Positions 2,296 to 26,493 of a stretch of DNA of 64,000 bases are shown here, one piece after another. Source of the stretch: a virus. Below the pieces are notes generated by a model that worked only from the letters and a program-made list of their open reading frames with translations, had not been told where the DNA came from and made no database searches. The stretch lies in the IMG/VR virus record IMGVR_UViG_3300025057_000004, positions 24,920-88,919 of that record. One strand, given 5' to 3'. Positions within the stretch are counted from its first letter, which is position 1. The number at the start of each line of letters is the position of its first letter. Both the position numbers and the translations under genes were made by a program.

Positions 2296-3009
2296 ATGAG
2301 CGCAATTGGCGTGTTGGTCGTAGGACCATCAGGTGCAGGTAAAAGCACCTCAATGATGAATCTTGATCCTAAGAGTACATACATTGTGAATGTACAAGGA
2401 AAGGCATTGCCGTTTCCTAAAGGTAGAGATTACAAACGTGTTCCGAAAGGAGGAAGACCTGATTCAGGTAATATGTACAGCACAGATGATGTACCTACAA
2501 TTTTGCAGGTGCTTCAGTATGTGAGTGACAAGATGCCTGATATGAAAACAGTAGTGATAGACGATTGGCAGTATTGTGCTGCTAACGAGTTTATGCGTAA
2601 AGCAGAGGTGAAAGGTTTTGAGAAGTTTACACAGATAGGTAAACATATCTGGGAGCTTGCTAATGCACCTACTAACTTACGTGATGACCTTACAGTTATC
2701 TATCTTACTCACGAAGAGGAACTTACGGACTCCACAGGTGCTCGTAAGAAGAAAGCGAAGACCATTGGTAAGCTTGTAGATGATAAGATCACACTTGAAG
2801 GTATGTTCACCATTGTATTGTATGCAGATGTTGAGACAAAAGAAGAGGGTGGTAGCAAGAAACTATGGAATCACTTCGTAACTCAGAATGTGGGTGATAC
2901 TACTGCAAAGTCCCCAATGGGAATGTTCAGTGAACTCAAGATCGATAACGATCTTAAGACAGTCGTTGATACTATCAACGAATACTATGGGAGAGGATCC
3001 CAAAATTGA
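2296..3009 (+). CDS. Sak4-like RecA-family ATPase (recombination mediator)
   Basis: A 237-residue P-loop NTPase with Walker A GPSGAGKS at residues 10-17 and Walker B KTVVIDDW near residue 90. Later comes a strand ending YLTHEEE, the sensor-like position of RecA-core proteins. Size and motif spacing match the phage AAA_24/Sak4 group, single-domain RecA relatives that anneal or exchange strands with SSB. The SSB-like gene lies one gene downstream, and this pairing is typical of phage recombination modules. Only 11 bases separate it from the helicase gene, so they are probably co-transcribed. The P-loop ATPase is certain; Sak4 is likely. Confidence 0.8.
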   Translation: MSAIGVLVVGPSGAGKSTSMMNLDPKSTYIVNVQGKALPFPKGRDYKRVPKGGRPDSGNMYSTDDVPTILQVLQYVSDKMPDMKTVVIDDWQYCAANEFMRKAEVKGFEKFTQIGKHIWELANAPTNLRDDLTVIYLTHEEELTDSTGARKKKAKTIGKLVDDKITLEGMFTIVLYADVETKEEGGSKKLWNHFVTQNVGDTTAKSPMGMFSELKIDNDLKTVVDTINEYYGRGSQN

Positions 3010-3040: not shown

Positions 3041-3388
3041 ATGGAAAACTCCAATTCTAAAAAACAGATCTCTATCAGCGAGATCATCACCCTTATGGGA
3101 GCAGGATACACACGAACTAATACAGCTCGTAATTACAATCCAGAGATCGGATGTATTCAAGATTACTATGACCTACCGAAAGATCAGGTAAGACTTTTGT
3201 TCGAGCATCCAAAATTGGCGAATGTTAAGACGACAAAGGTTGTTGTTCCTATGTTCGATCTTGTAGATGACACTACTACTACAAGTAGTGAAGATGAGAA
3301 TGCCTCTGCTATTCCAGGTGTAACAGCTAATGAAGAGCCTGTAACAGAGACGTTTACTAACACTAACACTTATAATACTTTTAACTAA
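3041..3388 (+). CDS. hypothetical protein between recombinase and SSB
   Basis: A 115-residue protein with an ordered N-terminal half and a Thr/Ser/Glu/Asn-rich low-complexity tail beginning near residue 80 (runs of TTTTSSEDEN and TNTNTYN). I do not recognise a family. The stop codon overlaps the next start as TAATG, so translation is coupled to the SSB gene and a partner role in ssDNA handling is conceivable. A 31-base AT-rich spacer precedes its start, with no Shine-Dalgarno sequence. Confidence 0.7.
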   Translation: MENSNSKKQISISEIITLMGAGYTRTNTARNYNPEIGCIQDYYDLPKDQVRLLFEHPKLANVKTTKVVVPMFDLVDDTTTTSSEDENASAIPGVTANEEPVTETFTNTNTYNTFN

Positions 3389-4182
3389 TGGCGATCGGAG
3401 TAAGAGACAGTGCAGAAAAGGTAACAGGAGGAGTAAAATTGATGACAGGTGCAAACTTCGTATATGTCAAAGCAATTGCTCCATCTGTTGAGGAGATGAA
3501 GAATGTTCTCGGATTCGAAGAACCAAAGGCACCAACACCATCAGTTGATACAGACGCAGAGGGTAACACCCGTGTACGTATTGATATGTGGTTGAGTAGA
3601 CCAGAAGATGACTTCCTATATCGTGAGTCTTTCTTCATTACAAAGAAGGATGTAGTATCTCAGAGTGGTAAAGTTCAGTTCGTGAACAACTTTGCTCAGT
3701 TCTGTTATGCAGATCCTGAAGAAGGACCTCAGTATGAGTGGTTCAACAAGGAAGGTCTGAGAAGAGCTTTCAATGGCGAAGAGCAGTTTATGAACTTCAT
3801 CCGTGTATGGGTAAACCATAAGGGTGGTAAGAAAGGTGAGCAATTGTTCTTTGATAATTGGGATGCTATCTTCGCAGGTAACTTCGGAGAGATCAAAGGT
3901 ATTCTACAGATGACCAATGATGGTGAACCTAATCGTGTAGGCATGCTATTCGGTGTGAAGACAACTGACGATGGTAAGCAGTATCAGACATCATACAGAA
4001 AACTGTATGTACGTCCTTATCAGAATGCTGCTACTGAGTTTCAAAAGTCTTTGAACGATGAGTATGGTGCATTCAATCACGATTATCAAGGAAGCCTTGT
4101 GTGGCAGGACTACAATCCTACCGCAGTAAAAGACCCTGTGGGTTCTGAAGCACCAGGTGCATCAGATTCTCCTTGGGGATGA
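3388..4182 (+). CDS. single-stranded DNA-binding protein, crAss-like type
   Basis: A 264-residue protein that fits the SSB slot of crAss-like replication blocks. It has a beta-rich core with many aromatic and basic positions and an acidic, disordered C-terminal segment ending ASDSPWG. That ending resembles the tail with a terminal aromatic that SSBs use to recruit partners. It follows the Sak4-like ATPase and precedes the primase, as expected for a protein coating the lagging strand. The overall fold is not provable by eye, so the call rests on position, length and tail. Translation is coupled to the upstream gene by TAATG overlap. Confidence 0.65.
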   Translation: MAIGVRDSAEKVTGGVKLMTGANFVYVKAIAPSVEEMKNVLGFEEPKAPTPSVDTDAEGNTRVRIDMWLSRPEDDFLYRESFFITKKDVVSQSGKVQFVNNFAQFCYADPEEGPQYEWFNKEGLRRAFNGEEQFMNFIRVWVNHKGGKKGEQLFFDNWDAIFAGNFGEIKGILQMTNDGEPNRVGMLFGVKTTDDGKQYQTSYRKLYVRPYQNAATEFQKSLNDEYGAFNHDYQGSLVWQDYNPTAVKDPVGSEAPGASDSPWG

Positions 4183-4211: not shown

Positions 4212-5150
4212 ATGCCTGTAAACGTAAGAAAAGAATTGAGTATCGAAAAGATACTCAGCAAAACATCACAGCTTGACATATATAGAAAGTACATCGGAGA
4301 TGTTTCTCCAAAGAAGATGATATCGTCACCTCTACGTGAGGGCGACAGTACACCTTCATTCAGACTTTACTATGGTAACAACGGTGATCTGCGATTCGTT
4401 GATTACGGTACAGGTATAAGAGGAGGAGTATTTGATCTCGTATCAATGCTTTATCCTTATCTCACTTTCGGGGAGTTGCTTGAAAAAGTATGGGAGGATC
4501 TGCAATGCAGGTCTCTCCCGCAACTTCCGATAGTATCAAACAAGAGGATAAAACCTAAAAGCTTTCCAACGATACTCATAAAGAAACGTCAGCCCACAGA
4601 GGATGATGTACAGATGTGGAAACAATGGGGAATCTCTACTGATACACTCAATCACTTCAGAGTAAGTCCGATATCTAAGTTCTGGATAGACAGGTCTTTG
4701 TTTAAATGCAAGACCCTCTCTTATGCTTATGATCTGTTCACAGAGTTTAAGATATACAGACCTCTTGAAGAAAGAATGAGATTCATATCAGGTGGTATGG
4801 AACTGCAAGGTTACAGATTGCTACCTCATAAAGGTGAGATATGTGTGATACAGAAGTCTTACAAAGATGTAATGCTGATGCATGAAATGGGAATACCTTC
4901 ATTTGCACCACAGGCAGAATCTATTGATGTGCCAGAGGATAAGATGGAGAGTATCATGTCACGTTTTGACCGTGTATTCATTTGGGGTGATCCAGACACA
5001 GCAGGTAATCTGTTCGCAGATAGACATGTTGAGAAGTATGGTGTAACCCCTGTATTCAATGATGACGGTACAAAAGACATTACTGATTCTTATGCAATGC
5101 ACGGTAAGTATCACGCTTATGGTATGATGGAAAAGCTGTTGGGTATCTGA
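4212..5150 (+). CDS. DnaG-like primase (Toprim)
   Basis: A 312-residue primase that makes RNA primers at the fork. Residues about 37-78 match the N-terminal DnaG zinc-ribbon region by layout (SPLREGDSTPSF ... DYGTGIRGGVFDLV). The metal-binding cysteines and histidine of the classical CHC2 ribbon are absent. The Toprim domain lies in the C-terminal half, with the metal-binding DxD in WGDPDTAGN (D260, D262). There is no separate helicase-binding domain. It sits after the SSB gene and before the junction nuclease, the standard order in this phage group. Start ATG 4212 follows a 29-base spacer. Confidence 0.85.
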   Translation: MPVNVRKELSIEKILSKTSQLDIYRKYIGDVSPKKMISSPLREGDSTPSFRLYYGNNGDLRFVDYGTGIRGGVFDLVSMLYPYLTFGELLEKVWEDLQCRSLPQLPIVSNKRIKPKSFPTILIKKRQPTEDDVQMWKQWGISTDTLNHFRVSPISKFWIDRSLFKCKTLSYAYDLFTEFKIYRPLEERMRFISGGMELQGYRLLPHKGEICVIQKSYKDVMLMHEMGIPSFAPQAESIDVPEDKMESIMSRFDRVFIWGDPDTAGNLFADRHVEKYGVTPVFNDDGTKDITDSYAMHGKYHAYGMMEKLLGI

Positions 5151-5170: not shown

Positions 5171-5518
5171 ATGGCAAACCGCAATAGAAATGCAGGTCAT
5201 TCGTGGGAGAGAGAGTGCGTAAAGCTGTTATCAGAGTTTTTTCCAGACGTTGTGACATCACGTTCGGAGTCAAGAAGAAGAGACGACCAGAAGGTTGACC
5301 TCTGCTACACTGACTACCTGAATGTACAGTGCAAAACACTGAAAGACCGTGTAGATTATATATCTGTACTTAAGACTATGCCTGTAGAGGAAGGTCAACT
5401 CAATGTGATATTTGAGAAGAAGACCACTAAAAGTCCTAAAGGAAGATTTGTAACACAGGGCAAATATGTACATATGACGCTGGATGATTTTATTAACTTA
5501 ATCCGTAAGACATGTTAA
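5171..5518 (+). CDS. PD-(D/E)XK Holliday-junction-resolvase-like nuclease
   Basis: A 115-residue protein of the archaeal-Hjc/PDDEXK type. It has an early Glu in HSWERE (E13), the catalytic Asp in QKVDLCY (D43) and the Q-x-K strand in NVQCKTL (Q53, K55), in the expected spacing. Enzymes of this family cut four-way junctions and resolve recombined or branched DNA before packaging. The context of recombinase, SSB and primase supports this. It overlaps the next gene by seven bases. A general nuclease role cannot be excluded. Confidence 0.8.
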   Translation: MANRNRNAGHSWERECVKLLSEFFPDVVTSRSESRRRDDQKVDLCYTDYLNVQCKTLKDRVDYISVLKTMPVEEGQLNVIFEKKTTKSPKGRFVTQGKYVHMTLDDFINLIRKTC

Positions 5519-6139: not shown

Positions 6140-6574
6140 ATGTCAAGAGCAATCTATATTAAATCAGAAGGTAACGCAAGACCAAAGAAAGTAACTGACT
6201 TCGAAGGAACTACATTCGGTGAGTTGAAAGCTCACGTAACAGATGTAAACTTTGAGAACGCGAATGTGATCATTCACTCTACAAAGACAACATTGTTCGA
6301 TGATACATCATTGATTCCTGCAGAAGGTGATGTCATCTTGCTTGTGGTACCAAAACAAATGAAAGCAGGTAATGATGAACTACAGGTATCTGATACCGAT
6401 GAGTTCAGCGACCTTATGGAGTGCTACAACGAGCTTGTAGATGCCTCATCTCGTTTTAACGAAGCACTTAAGGCAGTAGGAGAACTTATTGTAGAGGATG
6501 AAGAAAATGTTGAAGTTGGTGGTAGCACTCTTGCTGCTATTAACAGAGCATTCAGAAACTTCTCAGGTAAGTAA
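6140..6574 (+). CDS. ubiquitin-like (beta-grasp) protein
   Basis: A 144-residue protein whose first about 76 residues follow the beta-grasp pattern: strand, hairpin, one helix (TFGELKAHV), then strands ending in LFDDTSLIPAEGDVILLVVP. The 'DDT.L..GD.I.L..P' ending is typical of ThiS/MoaD/ubiquitin-like proteins. Residues about 85-144 form an acidic, helical extension with an internal Gly-Gly at 127-128. The protein ends FSGK, so a free terminal Gly-Gly is not encoded. The next three genes look like E2, JAB and E1 partners, which is the main reason to read this as the modifier. Processing before conjugation, or non-covalent use, are both possible. Confidence 0.6.
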   Translation: MSRAIYIKSEGNARPKKVTDFEGTTFGELKAHVTDVNFENANVIIHSTKTTLFDDTSLIPAEGDVILLVVPKQMKAGNDELQVSDTDEFSDLMECYNELVDASSRFNEALKAVGELIVEDEENVEVGGSTLAAINRAFRNFSGK

Positions 6575-6581
6575 TTGATTA

Positions 6582-6618
6582 GGAGACCCTTCTGAAATAC
6601 GGAGGGTCTCCATTCATT
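6582..6618 (+). terminator. hairpin between Ubl and E2-like genes
   Basis: A 9-base perfect stem (6582-6590 pairing with 6603-6611) with a 12-base loop, followed by a moderately T-rich stretch. It starts seven bases after the Ubl stop codon. It could be a weak intrinsic terminator or attenuator lowering expression of the downstream enzymes relative to the modifier, or an mRNA 3' end stabiliser. Confidence 0.6.
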
Positions 6619-6631
6619 TAAAACGATAAAT

Positions 6632-7714
6632 ATGCGACCACTTGCGTTTAAAATTAAGGGTGATTTCGGCACAGTATATATTACAGAGGGTGGTATCAAA
6701 GATGTTGCTCCTGAAGGTGTATTGTACGTAGCTAATATTCATCCTGATGATGACATCATAGACAGAGATAGTTTTAAATATCATATTATTTTGAAACATC
6801 TTTATGATATATTGGATCATAGATACAAATGTGATGGTGATATAAGTAATATTGATATTGATGTAAGGTATATACATTATTCTGATGCATATAATATCAA
6901 TATAAAAATGTATCATGGTGATATTGAGATCATTAATAGTTTGGGTCATAAAGCTTTGATCAAAGAAGTGTATACTAAAACGTTTATCATAGCAGATGAA
7001 AGAGGTATGAAGTTTCGAGATCTTAATATACTTCGCACTTGTATCAACACCATCGAAGCAGAAAAAAAATTCTGTCATTCTCATGCTCCTGGTTTATCAA
7101 CATTTCGACCTAGTTGGAGTTCTATGTGTTTAGGTGATTCTGAATTGTATAAACATTTCTTTAAAAGAAAGAGAAAGCATACAGATATGAGCCTTTATTC
7201 AGTATATCTTGATACTTATCTTGCTTGGGAGAGTAAAGAAGGTGGACCTTACAGCACTATTGAAAGTGTTTATAATTGTCCTATTAATGATTCAAGTGTT
7301 AATATAAGTATTGACGATGTGAATGTTGATAATCTTATATACAAGTATGCAGATGTGTTTCAAGTAGTTGATTATAACGGTAAACTTACCGTATCATCTG
7401 ACTTTATGAATCATATTGAAATAGAAGGTGTACGTAAGACCAATTCATATGGTAATTACTTTGATTTTGACATTTTTAAAACAACCACTAGTTATACAGG
7501 AGGTAATGATGTTGAATGTTCATCCGCAACATTCAGGGGTGTTCCGTTAAGAATGGCTATAAAGGATATTGACAAAGATGAACTGATGTCATATATGCCT
7601 ACTATTTATAACAGACCGCCAGGAAACCTAATGGATACAATAAAAAATAGAGTTTCTTCAATTATAAATCTTAATTATGAAAAAAGTAACAGAGAAGAAG
7701 TACGAAACGCTTGA
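6632..7714 (+). CDS. putative E2-like conjugating enzyme
   Basis: A 360-residue protein placed between Ubl and JAB genes. Residues about 147-170 contain FCHSHAPG, then MCLGDSEL (H149, H151, C166), with W199 further on. This resembles the HxH...G..CLG active-site block of prokaryotic E2-like proteins, where the Cys carries the modifier as a thioester. The N-terminal 140 residues are beta-rich and the C-terminal 160 residues are of unknown fold. The gene is visibly more AT-rich than its neighbours, which could mean separate acquisition. It overlaps the JAB gene by 38 bases. The E2 call is motif plus context only; a structure prediction is needed to be sure. Confidence 0.5.
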   Translation: MRPLAFKIKGDFGTVYITEGGIKDVAPEGVLYVANIHPDDDIIDRDSFKYHIILKHLYDILDHRYKCDGDISNIDIDVRYIHYSDAYNINIKMYHGDIEIINSLGHKALIKEVYTKTFIIADERGMKFRDLNILRTCINTIEAEKKFCHSHAPGLSTFRPSWSSMCLGDSELYKHFFKRKRKHTDMSLYSVYLDTYLAWESKEGGPYSTIESVYNCPINDSSVNISIDDVNVDNLIYKYADVFQVVDYNGKLTVSSDFMNHIEIEGVRKTNSYGNYFDFDIFKTTTSYTGGNDVECSSATFRGVPLRMAIKDIDKDELMSYMPTIYNRPPGNLMDTIKNRVSSIINLNYEKSNREEVRNA

Positions 7715-8789
7715 GCTGAAAGAAAAAGGTAAGCTCATTATTACAGAAGATGTAAAGAAAAAGATCGATCAGATGCATGATCGTGTAGGTAATACTGAAT
7801 GGTGTGGTTTTATCTTTTATGAAAAAGTTGAAGGTAGCATCAGTGATCCTGAAACATATGTGGCTAAGACTACAGATGTCTATATGATGGATATCGGCAG
7901 TCATAGTTATACTGAGAGTGATAATCATACTGATGATGTTGTTAGTATGGTAGATCGTATTCCTGCATATATGGAAAACAGATATGGTCTGATACATACG
8001 CATCATAATATGAGTGCTTTCTTTTCAGGTACTGATATTCAAGAGTTGCACGATAACGTTCATCTATATTCTTATTATCTGTCACTGATCGTTAATTTCG
8101 ATGGTAAGTGGTGTGCTAAGATTGCTAAGTTGATAGATGTTGAAAGCAGTTCTTATACCATTACTGAAGAAGATGAGGATGATGTAATTGTAAACATTCC
8201 ATCAAAGAAGGTGATGATCACATTTGATCTTGACATTGAGTTTGAACAGCCTGAAGCTTATGATGATGTAGTTGAATTACGTATTGCTGAGATCAGAGAA
8301 CGTAAGAAGAAGGAAGAAGAAGAGAAGAAGAAAAACAAATCTCTTTTCAACAATCCTTATCAGACAAACATGTTCAAAAACACTGATTACTACAGTCACT
8401 CAAGTCTTAATGCATACAATAATTGGTATGCTCAATATGATGAATTGGTACAGCAACCTAAAACAGGTTTTACAGAAGATGATGAGATAGAGTGGTTCAT
8501 ATCATCTCTTATTTATCTTGATCCTTATGCTGATGAACCATTGCACGATGCATTATCAGATCTTAAGGATCATGAATCAGATCCTTATTTCAATGTGTAT
8601 GTAGATCAATTGAATGACAATGCAGTAAACTATGCTATCGATCATTTTGATATTACTGGGGCATACGAGGGTGTATGCAGTACATTAAAAAAGCTGAAGC
8701 CTTACTCAGGTAAAGGTGTTGAGAAGCTTAGAGAAGCACTTGAGTTAGCTAAACACGAGTTAAATAAGAATAACGAATACTCACTATGA
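7677..8789 (+). CDS. JAB/JAMM metallopeptidase (deconjugase-like)
   Basis: A 370-residue protein with a complete JAMM zinc site in the N-terminal domain: the upstream Glu in TEWCGFIFYE (E41), then H107-x-H109-x7-S117-x2-D120 in IHTHHNMSAFFSGTD. JAMM enzymes cut isopeptide bonds or trim C-terminal tails of ubiquitin-like proteins. After about residue 195 comes a highly charged Glu/Lys coiled stretch (about 205-222), an Asn/Tyr-rich linker and a helical C-terminal region of about 110 residues without a known match. Its stop overlaps the E1-like start as ATGA. All metal-binding residues are present, so activity is expected. Confidence 0.85.
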   Translation: MKKVTEKKYETLELKEKGKLIITEDVKKKIDQMHDRVGNTEWCGFIFYEKVEGSISDPETYVAKTTDVYMMDIGSHSYTESDNHTDDVVSMVDRIPAYMENRYGLIHTHHNMSAFFSGTDIQELHDNVHLYSYYLSLIVNFDGKWCAKIAKLIDVESSSYTITEEDEDDVIVNIPSKKVMITFDLDIEFEQPEAYDDVVELRIAEIRERKKKEEEEKKKNKSLFNNPYQTNMFKNTDYYSHSSLNAYNNWYAQYDELVQQPKTGFTEDDEIEWFISSLIYLDPYADEPLHDALSDLKDHESDPYFNVYVDQLNDNAVNYAIDHFDITGAYEGVCSTLKKLKPYSGKGVEKLREALELAKHELNKNNEYSL

Positions 8790-9475
8790 TAGAAGTACAA
8801 CACAAGGATTCTCATACGAGATTCAATAGTGTTGACTGGTTCGGTGATTTCAGAGAGATAACTATCGGTGGTGTCGGCACTATCGGTAGTTGGCTTTCTC
8901 TGTTATTGGCAAGAACTGGTGAACACGAATTGATCATGTATGATGATGATCAGGTTGAAAGCATCAATCTATCAGGACAACTGTTCTCGAAAGATGATGT
9001 TGGCAGATCTAAAACGGACAGTGCACGTGATAACATATTCTCATTTACTGAGATATCAGATCAGAAAGTGCATTCGATGAATCAGAAACTTACGAGCGAA
9101 TCGTATGTATCTGCAATCTCATTCTCTTGCTTTGACAATATGAAAGCACGTAAAGAGATGTTCAACAAATGGAAGACCCTTGAGAACAGAGAGCTTTTCA
9201 TTGATGGTCGTATGACCATTGAAACATACGAAGTGTATGTTGTAAAGAAAGGAGATGAGAAACGCTACGAGCAGACACTGTTTGATGATTCACAGGTAGC
9301 AGAACAGATATGTTCTTTGAAGAACACATCACATACAGGTGCGCTCATTGCTGCAAGAATGGTAACTTCATTCACAAACCATATTGCCAATCAGATAATG
9401 GGCATTGATATACGTGAAGTACCATTTCATTTTAGAGAAGATATGCAATTACAGTTAATTACTATGGAATGTTAG
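8786..9475 (+). CDS. E1/ThiF-like adenylyltransferase
   Basis: A 229-residue single-domain E1-type enzyme. The nucleotide-binding loop ITIGGVGTIGSW (residues 26-36) is followed by the acidic MYDDDQVESINLSGQLF block (D53-D55, N61, Q65) and DVGRSK (D71, K76), all standard for the ThiF/UBA fold. SFSCFDNMKARK near residue 112 corresponds to the conserved Asp-Asn strand. Candidate thiol positions include C115, C176 and the last residue C229. Such enzymes adenylate the C-terminus of a ubiquitin-like protein. It is translationally coupled to the JAB gene and overlaps the next gene by seven bases. ThiF-family membership is confident; its substrate is inferred to be the Ubl at 6140. Confidence 0.85.
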   Translation: MIEVQHKDSHTRFNSVDWFGDFREITIGGVGTIGSWLSLLLARTGEHELIMYDDDQVESINLSGQLFSKDDVGRSKTDSARDNIFSFTEISDQKVHSMNQKLTSESYVSAISFSCFDNMKARKEMFNKWKTLENRELFIDGRMTIETYEVYVVKKGDEKRYEQTLFDDSQVAEQICSLKNTSHTGALIAARMVTSFTNHIANQIMGIDIREVPFHFREDMQLQLITMEC

Positions 9476-9957
9476 CAGAAATAATAAAACATTATGATGA
9501 TCCTTATAAAATTGATCTTTATGATTTTAGACGTTTATATCTTTCTAATGAAAAACAGTCTTTTAAAAGATTGTCTCCTATAGTACATAATACACTTGTA
9601 CCTGTTATTTATGCTATTACAGGTACCAATAAAATAAATGATCGTCAGGTAAATGGTATATACGAAAGTATATATGATTCTAATCGAGGCTTTTATGTAA
9701 ATGCTGTTGCGTGTATAGATCATAGAGAAGTAAAGAAAGTGCGTGAGAATTTTATTCATGCATTACTTAACCACCACGATTTTATGAAAGTGACAAATAT
9801 CACGTTTGTTCTTGAAAATGATAACGCTGAAGTAGCTATTCCAAGTGATTTTATAGCTAAGAAAGAAATGCTTGCTGATGTACAGAACAATCTGTCAACT
9901 ATGATCAAGCAGTCTATTGAGAAAGATAATGAATTAGGTTTAATGATAGTAGAATAA
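9469..9957 (+). CDS. unknown protein coupled to the E1-like gene
   Basis: A 162-residue protein overlapping the E1-like gene by seven bases and the next gene by one (TAATG). I do not recognise a family. It has alternating hydrophobic and charged segments, a central YAITGTNKI stretch and a helical C-terminus, and no Cys-rich or membrane region. It is AT-rich like the E2-like gene, which hints that it may belong to the same acquired module. Confidence 0.7.
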   Translation: MLAEIIKHYDDPYKIDLYDFRRLYLSNEKQSFKRLSPIVHNTLVPVIYAITGTNKINDRQVNGIYESIYDSNRGFYVNAVACIDHREVKKVRENFIHALLNHHDFMKVTNITFVLENDNAEVAIPSDFIAKKEMLADVQNNLSTMIKQSIEKDNELGLMIVE

Positions 9958-11030
9958 TGGAAAGAAACAATTATTTTGAAAGGAAGGCAGTGTCACGTTC
10001 ACTGCTTTCCGAATTTGCTCGTCATCCACAACGAGCTAAAGCAATGCTTGACGGTACTGCAGTAAAAGTAGAGAGTGATGCGATGAACTTCGGTAGCATG
10101 TTCGATTCTTTGATGTTTGATACAGCACAGGAGTTTTCTTCTAAGTATCGTGTATCGCAATATGAGAATCCTTGGACAGACAGACGTAAGAATACAGGTA
10201 AGTTTACATATGCTCTTGAGCAGATAATGCAGGAGACACTTGCTAATGATGCGACTGCAGACCTTGAGACAATGTTTATGCAAGCATATACACAGTCAGG
10301 TATCAAGAGTCCTAAAGTATATGATCTTATTGCTGAGTTTGTAGAAGTAGGAGGTAGAGATTGGGCATCCGAGTATATGATGGCAAGTAAGATCACTCTT
10401 ATTACTCAAGAAGAGTACAACAAAGCTGCTGCAATGAAAGCAATGCTTATCAACAATAAGTATGTAGGTGATATGTTTGTAATGGATGTACCTGAAAGTC
10501 ATAGTGTGTTGCGTGATAAGGTTGAAATCATATATCAAATGGATATATCATTTGAAATGGAAGGCGTTCAATGTAAGGCACTTCCAGATATTGTTATTAT
10601 TGATCACGAGACGAAGGTTATACAGGTTGTAGACCTTAAAACAACATCTTCTTACGATCATAGTGTGATGTCATCATTTATGAAGTTTGGATATGATTAT
10701 CAGGCTGCATGGTATACACTTGCTATTGAGATGATCACACAGCAAGCAGGACCATTGCAAGGCTATACAGTATCTCCTTCATTCTTATTTGTATTTGTTG
10801 ATACAGTACAAGGTAATGAGCCTATATGTGTAAAGATGTCAGAAATGGATGTTGATTGTGCTATCAATGGTGGTTATAGATACAACAGAAAACGCAAAGG
10901 TATTCTTGACGTATTCAGAGACTATCTATGGCATGTCAATAATGATCTGTGGGATTATCATAGAGACTATTACGAGAACGATGGTGTTATCATAACTGAT
11001 ATTTACGACAATGTTCTTGAAGGAGTCTGA
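9957..11030 (+). CDS. RecE/PDDEXK-type exonuclease
   Basis: A 357-residue nuclease of the PD-(D/E)XK superfamily. The catalytic core is at about residues 203-252: CKALPDIVI (D211), then QVVDLKTT (D226, K228), then the helix FGYDYQAAWY that follows in RecE/YqaJ-like exonucleases. The N-terminal LLSEFARHPQRAKAM and NFGSMFDSLMF also match the opening of these proteins. They degrade one strand from a dsDNA end to give the 3' tail used by annealing recombinases, so the Sak4-like ATPase and SSB would be its partners. It overlaps genes on both sides. Confidence 0.8.
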   Translation: MERNNYFERKAVSRSLLSEFARHPQRAKAMLDGTAVKVESDAMNFGSMFDSLMFDTAQEFSSKYRVSQYENPWTDRRKNTGKFTYALEQIMQETLANDATADLETMFMQAYTQSGIKSPKVYDLIAEFVEVGGRDWASEYMMASKITLITQEEYNKAAAMKAMLINNKYVGDMFVMDVPESHSVLRDKVEIIYQMDISFEMEGVQCKALPDIVIIDHETKVIQVVDLKTTSSYDHSVMSSFMKFGYDYQAAWYTLAIEMITQQAGPLQGYTVSPSFLFVFVDTVQGNEPICVKMSEMDVDCAINGGYRYNRKRKGILDVFRDYLWHVNNDLWDYHRDYYENDGVIITDIYDNVLEGV

Positions 11031-11790
11031 GATAAAAGGTGTCATTACCTATACAGGCTTTCACATTCAGATAAGTGTAAAAGAAGATGGTGAGATTGAA
11101 GAGATGGAAGACGAAAACGGTTTTTTCTATGAAATTAGAAAGAACGGAAAACGTTTATTCTTCAAAGGAGACCATATCTATGTCAAAGATGTAGGTTGGT
11201 ATCAACTCAACGATATTGCTCTGATGCGTTCTCATAACGGTATCAGAGTATATCGCGGTCTTACTATGGAGAGATCAGATACATCACTCTTGATACTGCC
11301 TGTATATGGTGGTACAAGAGCTGATGTGTCATTCTCTACACATCTTATGAATGCTTATCTATATCGTGAAGGTTGTATGGATGGTTGCATATGGGTTCTT
11401 ATGAAAAGACCTTATGTTGTTGACAGTAGATATGAGAATGCAATGCATTTCTTCAGGTCATCTGATCACTTTATGCGTGAAGAAGAACTCGGTAGTGAGT
11501 ATGTAATGCTTACACTTGCAATACCTGATGACTTTGTTGAAGATCTTGTACGCATTCGCGTTGGTAAATTTTCAGAGATCAGTGAGTCTCATAAAAAGCG
11601 TATTTATGATTTTCATATGATACGTGATAAATACAACAAGATTCGTCTTGAATTGGAGAAGAGTCCTCTTCTGCGTGATAAGATGGAGAAAGAGTATGAT
11701 ATTGAGATTCCAGAAGGTAGTGAATTACGCTCACGTATGGATGAAGATAGAGAAACATTTTATGATAAATACATAATATATGAGCGTTGA
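11011..11790 (+). CDS. hypothetical protein
   Basis: A 259-residue protein without a recognised domain. The first half is beta-rich with many Gly and aromatic residues; the last 70 residues are charged and probably helical. It overlaps the exonuclease gene by 20 bases and the glycosylase gene by 11, placing it firmly in the DNA-metabolism transcript. No signal peptide. Confidence 0.7.
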   Translation: MFLKESEIKGVITYTGFHIQISVKEDGEIEEMEDENGFFYEIRKNGKRLFFKGDHIYVKDVGWYQLNDIALMRSHNGIRVYRGLTMERSDTSLLILPVYGGTRADVSFSTHLMNAYLYREGCMDGCIWVLMKRPYVVDSRYENAMHFFRSSDHFMREEELGSEYVMLTLAIPDDFVEDLVRIRVGKFSEISESHKKRIYDFHMIRDKYNKIRLELEKSPLLRDKMEKEYDIEIPEGSELRSRMDEDRETFYDKYIIYER

Positions 11791-12487
11791 AAAGGTAATG
11801 ACAGACCTTTTCGGTATCGGTTGGTATGGTGCTATGAGGACATATCTTCAGTCTCAGGACTTTGCAAACTTAGGTCATTGGTTGATGGCTGAACGTAAGC
11901 AAAGAGTAGTATATCCTGAACAGAAGAATGTCTTCAAGGCATTCCAATTGACACCGTATGAAAAGGTAAAAGTAGTATTCTTAGGTCTTGATCCTTACAT
12001 CAGAAAAAATCAGGCAACAGGTTTGTCTTTTGGTGTTGATATTGACAAGACAGACAGAAAGATACCACCATCACTGAAGACCATCATTAAAGAGTTGGAG
12101 GAAGATCTTGATACATTGTGTCTTGATTTTGATTATTCTTTGGAAGGATGGGCAAAACAGGGAGTGCTTATGCTCAATACATCATTGACCGTACAGGATG
12201 GACAGACGAACTCACATTTGAATATGTGGAAACCGTTCACACTGGAGGTAATTGATGCAATAAATGATATGAATGAGAATGTCATATTCATTCTATTGGG
12301 TAGAACAGCACAATCCTATGAGAAATATCTTGACCCTGATTCTACAAGAATCATAAAAGCACCACACCCTGCAGCAGAAGCATACGCAGGAGGCAAGGCA
12401 GGATTCTATGGGAGTAAGATATTCAGTAAGTGTAACAGCATGCTGTATATGCTTGGAAAAGAAGAGATAAACTGGAATATAAAATAA
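11780..12487 (+). CDS. uracil-DNA glycosylase, family 1-like
   Basis: A 235-residue glycosylase that removes uracil from DNA and is a recurrent gene of crAss-like phages. The water-activating motif reads GLDPYIRKNQATGLSF (D71, Y73) in place of the usual GQDPYH...GLSF. The uracil-recognition strand is LMLNTSLTV (N133). The leucine-loop region is APHPAAEAYAGGKAGFYG (H196). The SH..MW..FT segment between them is also family-like. The catalytic Asp and His are kept, while the normally invariant Gln and His of motif 1 are changed to Leu and Ile. It may protect phage DNA or act with replication. Confidence 0.8.
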   Translation: MSVEKVMTDLFGIGWYGAMRTYLQSQDFANLGHWLMAERKQRVVYPEQKNVFKAFQLTPYEKVKVVFLGLDPYIRKNQATGLSFGVDIDKTDRKIPPSLKTIIKELEEDLDTLCLDFDYSLEGWAKQGVLMLNTSLTVQDGQTNSHLNMWKPFTLEVIDAINDMNENVIFILLGRTAQSYEKYLDPDSTRIIKAPHPAAEAYAGGKAGFYGSKIFSKCNSMLYMLGKEEINWNIK

Positions 12488-14191: not shown

Positions 14192-14690
14192 TCCATTACA
14201 CTCGTACATAACAGTGTGGTTAGAAAAGATCGGCATGAAAAAGCCTAATAGACCATCCCTTATGACACCTGAACAGAAAAAGATGAATATGATGCTCATC
14301 GATGAAGAAGTTCAGGAACTTATGATTGCATTGTCAAAGAATGATGACATTGTAGAACTATGTGATGCGTACTTTGATGTACTATGGGTAGTTACTCAGT
14401 CAGCAATGATGAACGGTATCAATATCAATGATATTGTACGTGCAGGAGCTGCGAGTAACCTTAGTAAATTCTGTGATACGCATGAAGAAGCTATTCAAAC
14501 AGTCACAGCATATATGAATGGTACACATCCTAATAAAAAAGGTGTATTTATTGAAACCCGTATTGAGGAGGTCAACGGTTCTTATGTTATTAAACGTACT
14601 AAAGATGGTAAAGTACTGAAGAGTATCAGTTTCAGAGAACCTGATTTCAGCTTTATTGAAAACCGTATGAAAAAAACAGAAGCCGTATGA
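14181..14690 (+). CDS. MazG-like nucleotide pyrophosphohydrolase
   Basis: A 169-residue all-alpha NTP pyrophosphatase. The metal-binding pair of helices is clear: DEEVQELMIAL (E42, E43, E46) and VELCDAYFDVLWV (E59, D62, D66), the EExxE...ExxD arrangement of MazG/dUTPase-2/HisE proteins. After it, GININDIVRAGAASNLSKF gives the usual third helix and 'N.SK' signature. It hydrolyses NTPs or dNTPs to monophosphates. Adjacent to the ribonucleotide reductase, with overlap ATGA, it probably tunes the nucleotide pool; phage MazG relatives have also been linked to alarmone control. Confidence 0.8.
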   Translation: MKVNPLHSYITVWLEKIGMKKPNRPSLMTPEQKKMNMMLIDEEVQELMIALSKNDDIVELCDAYFDVLWVVTQSAMMNGININDIVRAGAASNLSKFCDTHEEAIQTVTAYMNGTHPNKKGVFIETRIEEVNGSYVIKRTKDGKVLKSISFREPDFSFIENRMKKTEAV

Positions 14691-17221
14691 ATAGCAAGGA
14701 ATATTTCAATGATGATGAACTTGCCGCTTCCGTATGGGAAGGTAAGTATGCTGCAGAAGGTGAAAACAATCCTGATGACATGCATAGACGCATGGCAAAA
14801 GAGTTTGCGAGAATTGAAGAATCGTATCTTAAAAATGACGAACCGATAGAGATCGTTGCAGTAAAACATTCAAATCTTAGCAATTACGGTAAGAGCAGAA
14901 GCTTTCTTACAGCAGATAAAATATATATGCTGTTCAAGAATTTCAAATACATAGTTCCTCAAGGTTCTATTATGTCAATGCTCGGAGTAGATAAGATAGG
15001 TTCTCTGTCTAACTGCTTTGTAATAGGACAACCTGAAGACAGCTACGGTGGTATCCTTCAAAAGGATGAACAGCTTGTACAGCTTATGAAGAGGCGTGGA
15101 GGTGTCGGTATAGACATCTCTACACTTAGACCAAGTGGTACAGATGTTACCAATGCTGCTAAGACATCTACTGGTGCAGCTTCATTCATGGAGCGTTTCT
15201 CTAATAGTACAAGAGAGGTAGCACAAGGAGGTCGTAGAGGTGCGTTGATGATTACTATTGATGTACGTCATCCTGATGTCTTTGAGTTTGTCAACATCAA
15301 GAAGGACAGAACAAAAGTTACAGGAGCTAACATCTCAGTTATGCTTCGAGATGATTTCATGGAAGCTGTCAAGAATGATGAGGATTACATGCTTAGATTT
15401 CCATGTAATCTTGAAAATAGGGATATTATAGGGACTCTTGAAGAATCTGAAAAAGTAGTTACTAAAAAGATCAGAGCCAAAGAACTCTATGATTCGATTG
15501 TAGAGAATGCATGGGAGAATGCAGAGCCAGGACAGATGTTCATTGATAGACATTGGGATTATAGTCCTGATGGTGCATATGAACAATATCGCGGTGTAAC
15601 TACAAATCCTTGCGGTGAAATATTCATGCAACCTTATGATGCATGTAGATTGATGGCTATTAATCTGCTCAGTTTTGTAGAGAATCCTTACACAGATGAG
15701 GCGTATATTGATTGGGTAAAACTGTATGAAGTTGCTTATGAACAACAAAGACTCGCTGATGATCTGGTCGATCTTGAACTTGAACACATATCTCGAATCC
15801 TTGCTAAGATACACTCCGATGAAGAATCTGATGAAGTTAAAAGAACTGAAATTAAACTTTGGGAAAAAGTGTATGATGTTGCTTCTGCAGGTAGGCGTAC
15901 TGGTTGCGGGTTTACTGCTCTCGGTGATATGCTTGCTGCTGTGGGGGTTGCTTACGACTCTCAACAAGGTTGTGATTATATTGAGAAAGTAATGCATACC
16001 AAGATGGAAGCAGAGCTTGATTGTACTATTGATCTTGCTATTCTTAGAGGTTCGTTTGAAGGTTGGGATTATAATGAAGAATTTGTAAAAATGAGTTCTG
16101 TTGGAACTAATGATTTTTACCAAATGCTTTGTGATGAATTTCCTGAACAAGCTGAGAGAATGTATATTTATGGACGCAGAAACGTTTCGTGGAGTACAGT
16201 TGCACCTACAGGTTCAGTAAGTATCCTGACACAGACTACATCAGGTTTAGAGCCTTTATTTGCTCCTTACTACATGCGTAGAAAGAAAGTGAATCCAGGC
16301 GAAGAAGGTGTACGTGTTGACTTTGTAGATCAGAATGGTGATAATTGGATGGAATATCCCGTTATGCATCCTCAATTTATTGAGTGGTGTAAAGAACATG
16401 AACCTGATGCAACTAAAGATGTATTGGAAAGCTTAACTAAAGCTCAATTAGACTCTTTATTTGAAGAGTCACCGTGGTATAACTCATGTGCTCCTGATAT
16501 TGATTGGAAGAAACGTGTAGATGTGCAAGCTATCATTCAGAAGTATACATCACATTCGATAAGTTCAACTATTAACTTGCCGAATGATGTTACCAAAGAA
16601 GAAGTAGCTGAGATCTACATACATTCCTATGATAAAGGTCTGAAAGGAGTTACAGTATATCGTGACGGTTGTCGTACAGGTGTGCTTGTAACAGAAACTG
16701 CAAAATCAAATGATAAGTTTGAGTATCACGATGCTCCTAAACGTCCTGATTGTTTACCTGTAGATATTCATACTACAGTATCAAAAGGAGTAAAATGGAA
16801 TGTCATTGTAGGACTGTTCGATAGTAAGCCGTATGAGGTCTTTGCCATTCCGCACTTTACGAATGAAACTGAACTCGAACTGTGCAAGATCAAAAGAGGT
16901 AGATACGATCTGCTGAAAAACGGTGATACATACAGTGAAGATATAACCTCTCAGATTACTGATGAGCAGGATGTATTGACACGTATGGTAAGCACAGCGT
17001 TAAGACACGGAGCTGATATAACATTCATTGTTGAGCAATTGAATAAGTCTCACGGTGATATTACCAGTTTCAGCAAAGCTATTGCAAGAACTCTTAAAAA
17101 ATACATCGATGAAAAGAAGATGGTATCAAGAGCAGCCTGTACCGAATGCGGAAGTAATAATGTCGTATTTGAAGAAGGTTGTCTTATGTGTAAAGACTGC
17201 GGTAGCTCGAAATGTGGATAG
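14687..17221 (+). CDS. nrdJ: adenosylcobalamin-dependent (class II) ribonucleotide reductase
   Basis: An 844-residue class II reductase converting ribonucleotides to deoxyribonucleotides with vitamin B12 as radical source, with no oxygen or second subunit needed. The redox Cys is in SNCFVIGQ (C110). The active-site NPCGE block gives N307, C309 and E311. GGVGIDISTLRPSG and APTGSVSILTQTTSGLEP are conserved substrate and barrel segments. The C-terminal CTECG...C..C...SSKCG (about 825-844) is the Cys-rich tail that re-reduces the active site. Length is normal for monomeric NrdJ. It follows the MazG-like gene as a translationally coupled pair and is closed by its own terminator. Confidence 0.95.
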   Translation: MNSKEYFNDDELAASVWEGKYAAEGENNPDDMHRRMAKEFARIEESYLKNDEPIEIVAVKHSNLSNYGKSRSFLTADKIYMLFKNFKYIVPQGSIMSMLGVDKIGSLSNCFVIGQPEDSYGGILQKDEQLVQLMKRRGGVGIDISTLRPSGTDVTNAAKTSTGAASFMERFSNSTREVAQGGRRGALMITIDVRHPDVFEFVNIKKDRTKVTGANISVMLRDDFMEAVKNDEDYMLRFPCNLENRDIIGTLEESEKVVTKKIRAKELYDSIVENAWENAEPGQMFIDRHWDYSPDGAYEQYRGVTTNPCGEIFMQPYDACRLMAINLLSFVENPYTDEAYIDWVKLYEVAYEQQRLADDLVDLELEHISRILAKIHSDEESDEVKRTEIKLWEKVYDVASAGRRTGCGFTALGDMLAAVGVAYDSQQGCDYIEKVMHTKMEAELDCTIDLAILRGSFEGWDYNEEFVKMSSVGTNDFYQMLCDEFPEQAERMYIYGRRNVSWSTVAPTGSVSILTQTTSGLEPLFAPYYMRRKKVNPGEEGVRVDFVDQNGDNWMEYPVMHPQFIEWCKEHEPDATKDVLESLTKAQLDSLFEESPWYNSCAPDIDWKKRVDVQAIIQKYTSHSISSTINLPNDVTKEEVAEIYIHSYDKGLKGVTVYRDGCRTGVLVTETAKSNDKFEYHDAPKRPDCLPVDIHTTVSKGVKWNVIVGLFDSKPYEVFAIPHFTNETELELCKIKRGRYDLLKNGDTYSEDITSQITDEQDVLTRMVSTALRHGADITFIVEQLNKSHGDITSFSKAIARTLKKYIDEKKMVSRAACTECGSNNVVFEEGCLMCKDCGSSKCG

Positions 17222-20258: not shown

Positions 20259-23200
20259 TTACATGTTTGTAAAGAATCTTAATCTTTCTTCAGGGTAGAA
20301 TACATCTTCTATTGTATCTACCATTGGTATCTGCCTCTTTGCCCAAACACCTAATTTAAGATCACCTTTATTTCTTCCAGCCTTGTACTCTGAAAAGAAA
20401 GGGTCATCATTGTAGAACCACCAAGGGTTGATGGTTCTTGTAATATCAAGAAGGTTTTCAAATTGATCAACCGCAGCAGATGGTGATTTAAGAATCTTTG
20501 TTGCTTCTTTAATATTCCAAACGGGAATGAATATACCAAGTTCTGTACTAAATCTATTTACCTGGTAAGCAAGCATATTCAAAGCCCAATTATCATCATC
20601 ATCTCCAGCTAAAGCAGCGAGAAACCCACCTGCTATGACAGCAGTTAAGAAATAACCTACCTCAACCATACTTCTTTTAATATTTGCTTTTTCCATTGGA
20701 GATAACTTATCAAAAGCATCTCCCGCAGAAGCAAATGTAAATTGACCTTCTTTGATCTCTTTTACAAGTTGTAACATAAAACGACCAGAAGTTCGATACA
20801 TACCTTCTATTTCGTCACCTATCATATAGTTACGATATTTTCTTTCAAAACGTCTATGAATACCTGTTGGCATCCACTTTCTAAACAACATTCCTGCTCT
20901 ACCGAGAGCTGATTTTTGAATAGCGTTTCTATCATTTATATTATAGATACCATGCAGTCTTTGATTTACAGATTGCATTTTTAGAATAAATTGGTTCTTA
21001 TCTGCGTCCGTAAAATCAGAACCGTCAAGATTCTTAACACCATCACGCACTTTTAATCTATTATTTTCTACTTCAAGAACATCATAGAAATCTACCTTTT
21101 TACCATCAAGCAATACTTTTTTATTGAATGCCATACCAAGTGCCATGCGTGATTGCATTTGGTGTTCACCCATATGGTTTAGCAAAAAGAAAGCAGATTC
21201 TGTCATTTGTCTTCCGAATCTATTACGATCTGTATTTGCTTCACTTACACGATTTTCAAAATCTTGCAATACATCAAAATCTTCAAGAAATAATCTAAGT
21301 TTATTATCGGATCTTGTTTTACCAGTATCTCCCATAAGACCTGCTAAACCATCGTTTGTATCAGTCCAATACGCTTTACGCGCTTTAGAAAGATCTTCTT
21401 GAGTTACAAACTGTTTTGCAAATGCTTCTTCTCTTATAAGTGCATTACCAAGAATAACGTTTGACATACCAGAGAAAACGTTGAGAGCAAGATTATTAAC
21501 AGAAGTATACTTTATAAGACCATCTATGATTTTTGCTTCGCTTACACTATCAGGAAGAATAAGATTCTTATTATCTTTTAGTTCACCATAAAATATCATA
21601 TCAATATATGATTTATATCTATCATAAACATTTCCACCTTCTGTAGATTCTACATTTATACCTCCTAACTTTTTTGCTTTTGCTAATAGACTTTCATCTA
21701 CAACTTTACGTTCCCTCATTACATCAGCACCTATTTCTATTACGCCTACGATTGAATTGAGTTCACGATGTCTGTTTGCCATGTTTGCAAATAGAACCAT
21801 TGAGGCTGTTGCGTCTGTAGACAGATCATTCATATTCTTTAAAGGACTGCTGTAATAGATAGGAACCTGTTTAATCGGTCTTCCCATTTCATCAAGCATA
21901 CCGAATGCTGTGTCATCCTGCTGGATCCTTAATATATCATTCAATGTCTCTTGAGCAGTATTCTTAGGGTCACTTTTAAGACGTTCCAATATATCTTTAC
22001 GTATCTGTGGAGCTAACATCTTATTGCGATACCTATCATTCATATGTGACATCAAAGATGTACGCATGTTCATATACTTCTCATAGTACTCTTTTTTAGG
22101 AGCACTACTCATAATTTCAGCATACTGACGATTCTTATATTTATTGGCAGGTTGAGCAAATTCTTTTCGATATCGAATATTACCATCTATATCTTTCCAA
22201 ATACGCTCGTTTTTCCAACGGTTATAATTTTTCAGTGCTCTTACTGTATTATTATATACAACCTTGTTTTCTTTTTTAAGCTTGTCAAGAAAGTCTTCAG
22301 GGTACTTGTTCTTTATTTCATAATAAAGATCAATGTCCTTTTTAAATTTTAAAGTATTCTCTATAAACTCCTTTCTTTTTTGCTGAAGAGCTTTTTTATA
22401 TTCAGGATTAAGCTGTGAATTTTCTTCATACCACCTGTTTTCAGCCTCAATATAATCCTGATCAAGATTAGGATTATTTGATCTGATCTTAAATCTCTCA
22501 AGAGAATCCTCGTGAGGTAAATTCAATCTTTCGTGTAATTCTTTATAGAATTTCTCTTTTGCTTTCTCATACTCACCTTGATTATATTCTGAAACAAGAT
22601 TACCTGTAAGGTTTCCGTCAACATCTCTTTCATAAATAAATTCTGTATTTGGAACACCAGCAGCTTTTAATTTAGCATCCATATCAAAAAGATCACGCAT
22701 GTCACGGATCGTAGATGTCTGAGCGTTTAGAATACGGTCTTTGACAAGACGGTCTGTAAGCCTAAGAAGTTCATCAGGATTTTCTGCCATAGAAGAAATA
22801 AGACGATTCCAATGAATTATATCAGGAGTGACCTCTTCAGTCATTCTCAATAACTCTTCAAGCTCAAGATTTACCTGATTTGATAGCTCATCTTTTGATA
22901 ACCCTTTATCTTTATGATAGGTTTCAAGAAACGGTCTCATAGTATGAACAAATATATTACGGGCATAAAACTTATAATCATTTTCCATTTGTTCTATACC
23001 TGTACTAATATTTTCAAGGGCTTCAATAAGTGCATTATGCCTATCAAGAGTATCTCCTGACACACCTGCGTTAACTAATTTACGTTTATCAAAACGTGTT
23101 TCCTGAAGAACAGACGTTACAATAGGTTTGTATATCGTAATGAATTTGCTCATATCATTTACTATAGTTGAAAACTCTGCAAGTTCATCATTATACATAC

Positions 23201-26492: not shown

Positions 26493-26493
26493 T

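Follow-up and report, generated by a model that had tools for sequence, protein, structure and literature searches.

A predicted ubiquitin-like conjugation cassette in the replication block of crAss-like phages

The best-studied bacterial pathways built on ubiquitin-like proteins (Ubls), the cyclic-oligonucleotide-based antiphage signaling system (CBASS) and Bil, are anti-phage defences. In CBASS type II, E1 and E2 are fused in Cap2 and the cGAS-like enzyme itself serves as the tag (PMC10097602); in the BilABCD operon, the E1 (BilD) has two domains and BilB carries a CEHH motif (PMC11354881). Iyer et al. (2006; PMC1779556) described an operon type with separate genes for a Ubl, a helical protein, an E2-like protein, a JAB peptidase and an E1, to which the PRTRC operons of plasmids and mobile elements (gene order C-F-B-A-ThiF) apparently correspond (row 6d of their Table 1). 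The PRTRC type is the closest known kind to the locus described here, a cassette of four consecutive genes for a Ubl, an E2-like protein, a JAB/JAMM metallopeptidase and a ThiF-family E1 at positions 6140 to 9475 of a 64-kb portion (the window) of the virus record IMGVR_UViG_3300025057_000004, which comprises 88,919 bases. Here, what appears to be a whole pathway is phage-borne and lies in a replication block. We found no description of a ThiF/ubiquitin-like pathway in crAss-like phages in the openly readable literature, and neither the crAss001 paper nor the 2021 crAss genome paper mentions one; priority is uncertain, subscription papers being outside this scope. The cassette and the gene that follows it are laid out as follows.

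6140-6574, + strand: Ubl, predicted precursor (144 amino acids); beta-grasp at about residues 1-72, Gly77, 67-residue helical tail
6582-6611, + strand: terminator-like hairpin between the Ubl and enzyme genes; 11-bp stem, weak T-run
6632-7714, + strand: E2-like protein (360 amino acids); H149-S-H151 at 7076-7084, C166 at 7127-7129 in C-L-G
7677-8789, + strand: JAB/JAMM metallopeptidase (370 amino acids); E41, H107, H109, S117, D120
8786-9475, + strand: ThiF-family E1 (229 amino acids); candidate thioester C176 at 9311-9313
9469-9957, + strand: gene X (162 amino acids); overlaps the end of the E1 gene; candidate fifth member

With the PRTRC plasmid operons the cassette shares the order Ubl-(F)-E2-JAB-E1, which the initial annotation had described as known from prokaryotic ubiquitin-like operons, as well as a stand-alone Ubl, a C-x-G at the E2 cysteine, and related E1 (hhalign E value of 2.7e-18) and JAB (1e-4) proteins. 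Unlike PRTRC, it has no ParB, E or F partners and is placed in a phage replication block, the histidine of its E2-like protein precedes the cysteine rather than following it, and its Ubl is always capped, whereas in PRTRC_C the chain mostly stops at GTKG or a few residues beyond it. The PRTRC models gave no match to the Ubl or the E2-like protein, and the scores against PRTRC_A (15 versus 101.8 bits) and PRTRC_ThiF (34 versus 144.75 bits) fell below the cut-offs. Direct homology of the Ubl and the E2-like protein to PRTRC_C and PRTRC_B was considered and rejected, as no significant match emerged from hhalign comparisons with 11 plasmid operons; the match of the E2-like protein with PRTRC_B, the best of six, had an E value of 0.09 and covered the C-x-G motif only.

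The cassette is neither Bil nor CBASS. As in Bil, the Ubl, E2, JAB and E1 genes are separate; however, a single ThiF domain makes up the phage E1, and the motif of the E2-like protein is a different one. The predicted E1, E2 and JAB activities are those of Cap2/Cap3 in CBASS type II, from which the cassette differs in its separate E1 and E2-like proteins and in encoding a beta-grasp Ubl. The PADLOC models for Bil and CBASS type II matched neither the Ubl nor the E2-like protein and bore only a partial resemblance to ThiF and a weak one to the JAB, with BilD (E value of 1.4e-4) covering only part of ThiF. A further parallel is the lambdoid tail-assembly pair I (Ubl) and K (JAB), in which a phage Ubl with an internal conserved glycine and a C-terminal extension is likewise encoded beside a JAB (PMC1779556). 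The I/K pair lacks an E1 or E2 and belongs to the tail module, whereas the cassette is found in the replication block, and assignment to this system was rejected because the module is wrong and I/K has no E1; the similarity of the JAB to a PHROG tail family was weak (E value of 0.007).

Conservation and distribution of the cassette

Judged by sequence, the window is part of a crAss-like phage, in agreement with the initial annotation, because TerL (38.5% identity, 701 amino acids), the major capsid protein (41%, 507 amino acids) and the portal protein (37%, 683 amino acids) match those of crAss001 in the same order. Scans of viral contigs with the single window ThiF or JAB protein as the query gave no match, and therefore an alignment-based search was used. 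This search recovered 323 related viral contigs, and the best 80 of these, together with loci from phage records and the window, make up the locus set.

The order Ubl-E2-JAB-ThiF recurs in 85 of the 86 loci that extend far enough upstream, the sole exception (L054) having no recognised Ubl and the rest present; left out of the count were three loci that are cut off (L034, L055 and L062), a piece of the window's own record (L010) and a different phage (L009, discussed below). Nearly all loci show the context helicase-AAA-(position of the single-stranded-DNA-binding protein [SSB])-primase, the cassette, and then exonuclease/RusA/uracil-DNA glycosylase (UDG)/ribonucleotide reductase (RNR), with homologues of the UDG, exonuclease and RNR annotated in crAss001 in the same order across loci; in L060, L063, L074 and L086, the cassette lies upstream of the helicase. 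The E2-like/JAB, JAB/E1 and E1/X junctions are overlaps of 4 to 38 bases, and the sole spacer, of 57 bases, separates the Ubl from the E2-like gene. The consecutive arrangement of the four open reading frames (ORFs) at the stated coordinates and their location in a replication block, both claimed by the initial annotation, were borne out by the window, the PHROGs assignments and the order across loci, and the synteny elsewhere that it had called for was found; the lack of co-occurrence in related phages that it had named as a refutation is clearly contradicted. Accessory cargo was rejected as a description of the cassette, since its position is fixed.

The carriers, a large group of crAss-like phages from gut and water, include the Steigviridae members examined, the Flavobacterium Fpv phages and many uncultured relatives; among them, crAss001, DAC15 and the Fpv phages are cultured. 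In crAss001, the cassette corresponds to gp79-gp75, annotated in turn as hypothetical, hypothetical, metalloprotease, thiamine biosynthesis and hypothetical. Other Crassvirales recovered via TerL (e.g., cr4, cr6, cr55 and cr60) are absent among the ThiF matches listed, and the cassette therefore seems to be confined to one branch of crAss-like phages. Within that branch it is standard, and the remark that it is not known as a standard part of crAss-like phages needs to be revised accordingly. Two pattern scans of GTDB species genomes returned nothing in the first and, in the second, one 3.7-kb contig of a metagenome-assembled genome (MAG), a negative that holds within the sensitivity of the patterns. 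This contig (L105; SABI01000248.1), from a MAG labelled Spirochaetia bacterium, encodes a ThiF that is 85% identical to that of crAss001 and is probably crAss-like phage DNA.

Products of the cassette and the hairpin

The 6140 product is well supported as a ubiquitin-like beta-grasp protein by structural modelling. No Pfam family was matched by any of 58 Ubl members, and a PDB profile search gave no relevant match; an AlphaFold2 model built from 58 sequences shows a beta-grasp with pLDDT values of 89-95 over residues 1-70, a break at residues 77-79 and a helix at 86-117. Foldseek matched this model to ubiquitin-like domains, ubiquitin, archaeal ubiquitin and MoaD with E values of 3e-4 to 1e-2, such modest values being usual for small domains. 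The fold, initially proposed with a prediction still to be made, is thereby upheld.

Gly77 (codon 6368-6370) is present in 85 of 85 Ubl sequences, and its usual context is K-x-K-[SA]-G. Across 64 non-redundant loci, its entropy is zero, whereas 15 different residues occur at the following position. In none of the ORFs is this glycine the last residue, and at least one highly variable residue always follows: 11 non-redundant ORFs stop exactly one residue beyond it (KSGK, KAGA, AAGH and others), 5 stop two to five residues beyond it, and 47 continue for more than 50 residues. Several phages with a one-residue cap encode the helical tail in an ORF of its own directly behind, i.e., the gene is split right after the glycine; the tail ORF is absent in a group comprising L030, L059, L061, L064 and L066-L068. 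Because the glycine is invariant and never C-terminal, the cap or tail is variable and gene fission falls right after the glycine, this is the pattern expected of a capped precursor with a predicted cut after Gly77, for which the JAMM peptidase would be the obvious enzyme. The Ubl tails of L004 (8295-8972) and its Steigviridae relatives L002, L005, L006 and L007 have a conserved acidic, Phe-containing C-terminal motif (e.g., YSDDEIDDMFAEMGIN and YSDAEIDEMFDFV), which somewhat resembles the C-terminal tip of single-stranded-DNA-binding proteins.

Directly behind the Ubl, the window has a strong hairpin (z score of -5.9) that was also picked up by a terminator scan. A hairpin of -12 kcal/mol or lower occurs at the Ubl-E2 junction in 51 of the 58 non-redundant loci in which the gap is at least 30 bases, and 43 of these 51 have a T-rich tail; the tail is of textbook form in crAss001 and its relatives, and the hairpin sequences differ. 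Other junctions in the block mostly span fewer than 30 bases or have no hairpin, with RusA>exo (4 of 9) a partial exception. In the simplest reading, the hairpin would act as an attenuator so that the stoichiometric Ubl is made in excess over the catalytic enzymes. Termination at the window's own copy is less certain because its T-run is weak. A terminator-like hairpin also trails the Ubl in 2 of 10 PRTRC operons and the candidate Ubl of the jumbo phage L009; the two plasmid cases (L093:7225-7319 and L101:5719-5819) resemble intrinsic terminators, with long T runs directly behind PRTRC_C.

The 7677 product is a JAMM peptidase. The Pfam Prok-JAB match (E value of 1.1e-4) falls just below the cut-off (22.5 versus 25 bits), and E41, H107, H109, S117 and D120 are each found in 88 of 91 sequences, with gaps or fragments of split genes accounting for the others. 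The full set of metal and catalytic residues read from the window is thus conserved in its relatives, and the H-S-H...F-F-S-x2-D pattern is common to PRTRC_A. We predict that the enzyme serves in both Ubl processing and deconjugation. The JAB gene consists of two ORFs in L001 (Flavobacterium phage FpV21; 5713-8005), L015 (7372-8989) and L024 (6639-8954). In FpV21, the break falls just before the H-x-H and the insert carries an ORF on the opposite strand, an arrangement resembling an intron that houses a homing-endonuclease gene.

Equally secure is the ThiF-family E1 at 8786, for which the initial assignment was confirmed by a match to PF00899 (E value of 3.8e-18; 66 bits versus a cut-off of 28.1) and by conserved ATP-site residues. 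Its profile matches structures of UBA5, MccB, ThiF, MoeB and Cap2, and R12, G29, G31, D53, D55, N61, Q65, K76 and D117 are present in 90 or 91 of 91 sequences. C176, found in 90 of 91, aligns with the conserved SCS cysteine of PRTRC ThiF in a forced full-length profile alignment. The protein has no fused JAB or E2.

The 6632 product belongs to PHROG 15310, of "unknown function," and a PDB profile search gave no relevant match. The HxH...CLG block noted at the outset is present as H149-S-H151 and C166-L-G168; H151, C166 and G168 are found in 87 of 88 sequences and lacking only in a truncated fragment, and E200, S201, G204 and P206 (87 of 88) and N102 (86 of 88) are missing only through gaps. 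Most members have Y-x-H-S-H...C-x-G, in which H151 and the cysteine are separated by a variable stretch of 8 to 37 residues. Classical ubiquitin E2s have H-P-N-x7-C-L. Among the window's closer relatives, L017 and L018 carry the motif HPHSSREGVMCLG, i.e., HPH-x7-CLG, in which the spacing from H-P-H to the cysteine equals the classical one, and L019 has HPHV...GICLG. The AlphaFold model has, by DSSP, a helix, four strands, a cysteine loop and helices, an E2-like topology with a core pLDDT of about 90-97, and against a viral library Foldseek returned phage proteins only. It is quite likely that this protein works like an E2, given its invariant cysteine, the E2-spaced motif in close relatives, the topology of the model and its slot in the operon; membership in the UBC superfamily is not claimed.

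Proposed pathway and alternative explanations

From the gene content and order, the conserved active sites, the beta-grasp model, the invariant capped glycine and the hairpin, all of which are shown here, we infer a series of chemical steps, with the identity of the E2 and of the targets. The Ubl precursor would be capped by one residue or a helical tail, and the hairpin would attenuate the transcript so that the Ubl exceeds the enzymes. The JAMM peptidase would cut after Gly77 and expose a C-terminal glycine, which the ThiF-like E1 would adenylate with ATP and then bind as a thioester on Cys176. The Ubl would pass to Cys166 of the E2-like protein and be joined to amine groups of target proteins, perhaps chosen by gene X, and the JAMM peptidase could take it off again. 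As to targets, for which the initial annotation had suggested virion or host proteins, our best guess is that they are replication and DNA-processing proteins of the phage or the host, given that the cassette lies in the midst of such genes. We consider that the cassette is probably a self-contained Ubl conjugation and deconjugation pathway at the core of the replication block of one large crAss-like branch. The fuller proposition, that a complete virus-encoded pathway, crAss001 included, with its capped Ubl precursor in transcriptional excess, a JAMM processing enzyme, a single-domain E1, a new E2-like family and possibly an adaptor, acts on replication or host-takeover proteins, may equally well be right or wrong.

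Several results weigh against conjugation. In the claim of a complete ubiquitin-like pathway, the Ubl fold, the JAB and the E1 stood up, while the E2, the weakest link, is probable: its predicted topology agrees with an E2, whereas Foldseek found no E2 in the PDB, and Pfam E2 families did not match the 6632 product. No E3 was identified, the Ubl and the E2-like protein lack significant similarity to PRTRC_C and PRTRC_B, and the window's gene X is shorter than, and has no significant link to, the homologous X clusters. In addition, a ThiF cysteine together with a JAB could serve sulfur transfer too. The Ubl would then be a sulfur carrier, activated to a C-terminal thiocarboxylate as in ThiS-ThiF and MoaD-MoeB, that supplies sulfur for a nucleotide, base or tRNA modification made in the replication block, and the 6632 product would be a cysteine enzyme, not an E2. 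The E1 does score best against ThiF/MoeB-type models, homologues of UDG and RNR are in the block, and a JAB occurs in some sulfur-transfer operons (PMC1779556); however, Iyer et al. (2006; PMC1779556) saw no JAB in the operons for thiamine or molybdenum cofactor synthesis, and E2-like genes in those of conjugation type only. As the capped precursor and the E2-type motif suit conjugation, and we noticed neither a cysteine desulfurase nor a rhodanese among the annotated genes of the crAss001 block, we regard sulfur transfer as unlikely.

It is conceivable that the pathway, or mainly the JAMM peptidase and the Ubl, interferes with CBASS, Bil conjugation or another defence of the host, as the initial annotation also suggested, since CBASS type II and Bil are made of the same parts (PMC10097602, PMC11354881). 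Anti-defence genes are, however, usually patchy and accessory, whereas all genes of the cassette keep one place in the replication block across phages that diverge widely, a position that argues more for a core function, and removal of a host tag alone would need no complete attaching branch; counter-defence is therefore a distinctly doubtful explanation. Very improbable, in our judgment, is a role in proteolytic maturation only, in which the JAMM peptidase would free a functional helical tail protein from the Ubl, as has been proposed for the lambda-type I/K pair, and the E1 and E2-like protein would do something else. A long helical tail does follow the glycine in most precursors, and processing of phage TAPI by TAPK was proposed by Iyer et al. 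(PMC1779556), but a single residue forms the cap in 11 non-redundant phages, the tail ORF is missing from a group of loci, the E1 with its intact active-site residues and the invariant-cysteine E2-like protein are kept everywhere, and the cassette lies outside the tail module.

If conjugation is true, it would provide a tractable phage Ubl system, probably with a new E2-like family, and would explain why genes labelled "thiamine biosynthesis," "metalloprotease" and "hypothetical" are retained jointly in abundant gut phages. The cultured carriers make the cassette directly testable in the laboratory, and the natural series of precursors, from one-residue caps and helical tails to split genes, is useful for studies of Ubl maturation.

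Gene X, neighbouring genes and a Xanthomonas phage operon

An ORF of more than 100 amino acids abuts or overlaps ThiF in 83 loci, and in 55 loci these ORFs form three mutually homologous clusters. Gene X has no similarity to PRTRC parts or other cassette proteins; from its position, it is a candidate fifth member or substrate adaptor. Other genes of the replication block in the window are as follows.

1112-2284, + strand: DnaB-like helicase (PHROGs), left part of the block
2296-3009, + strand: AAA (PHROGs), left part
3388-4182, + strand: SSB-position gene (PHROGs and conserved order), left part
4212-5150, + strand: primase (PHROGs), left part
5171-5518, + strand: RusA-like (PHROGs), left part
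9957-11030, + strand: PD-(D/E)XK exonuclease (PHROGs), right part
11011-11790, + strand: unlabelled gene, right part
11780-12487, + strand: UDG-position gene (conserved order, crAss001 UDG homologues), right part
14687-17221, + strand: RNR (PHROGs, crAss001 RNR homologues), right part

Elsewhere in the window, two giant adjoining ORFs of 2093 and 4275 amino acids (20259-39321, - strand) may, judging by how large they are and where they lie, be the virion RNA polymerase subunits of crAss-like phages. A 794-amino-acid ORF (58855-61236, - strand) resembles repeat-containing "surface"/BspA-like proteins from widely differing phages (Synechococcus, Prevotella, Listeria and jumbo phages).

A possible second, independent phage ubiquitin-like operon was found via ThiF in Xanthomonas phage PhiXhv-16 (L009, 2730-6606) and occurs also in PhiXhv-12, PhiXhv-15 and Erwinia phage Ep032, phages of 227-229 kb. 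No JAB was seen near its ThiF. A neighbouring 140-amino-acid protein ends in ASGG and is followed by the terminator-like hairpin mentioned above. Beside the ThiF E1 is an 892-amino-acid protein with Cys-rich ends and the E2-type motif RIHPHMAVPSSQESHGSLCLGSF (RIHPHM...HGSLCLGSF), which aligns with the E2-like profile at the H-x-H...C-L-G block (E value of 0.0074); this alignment weakly backs the reading of that block as an E2 site.

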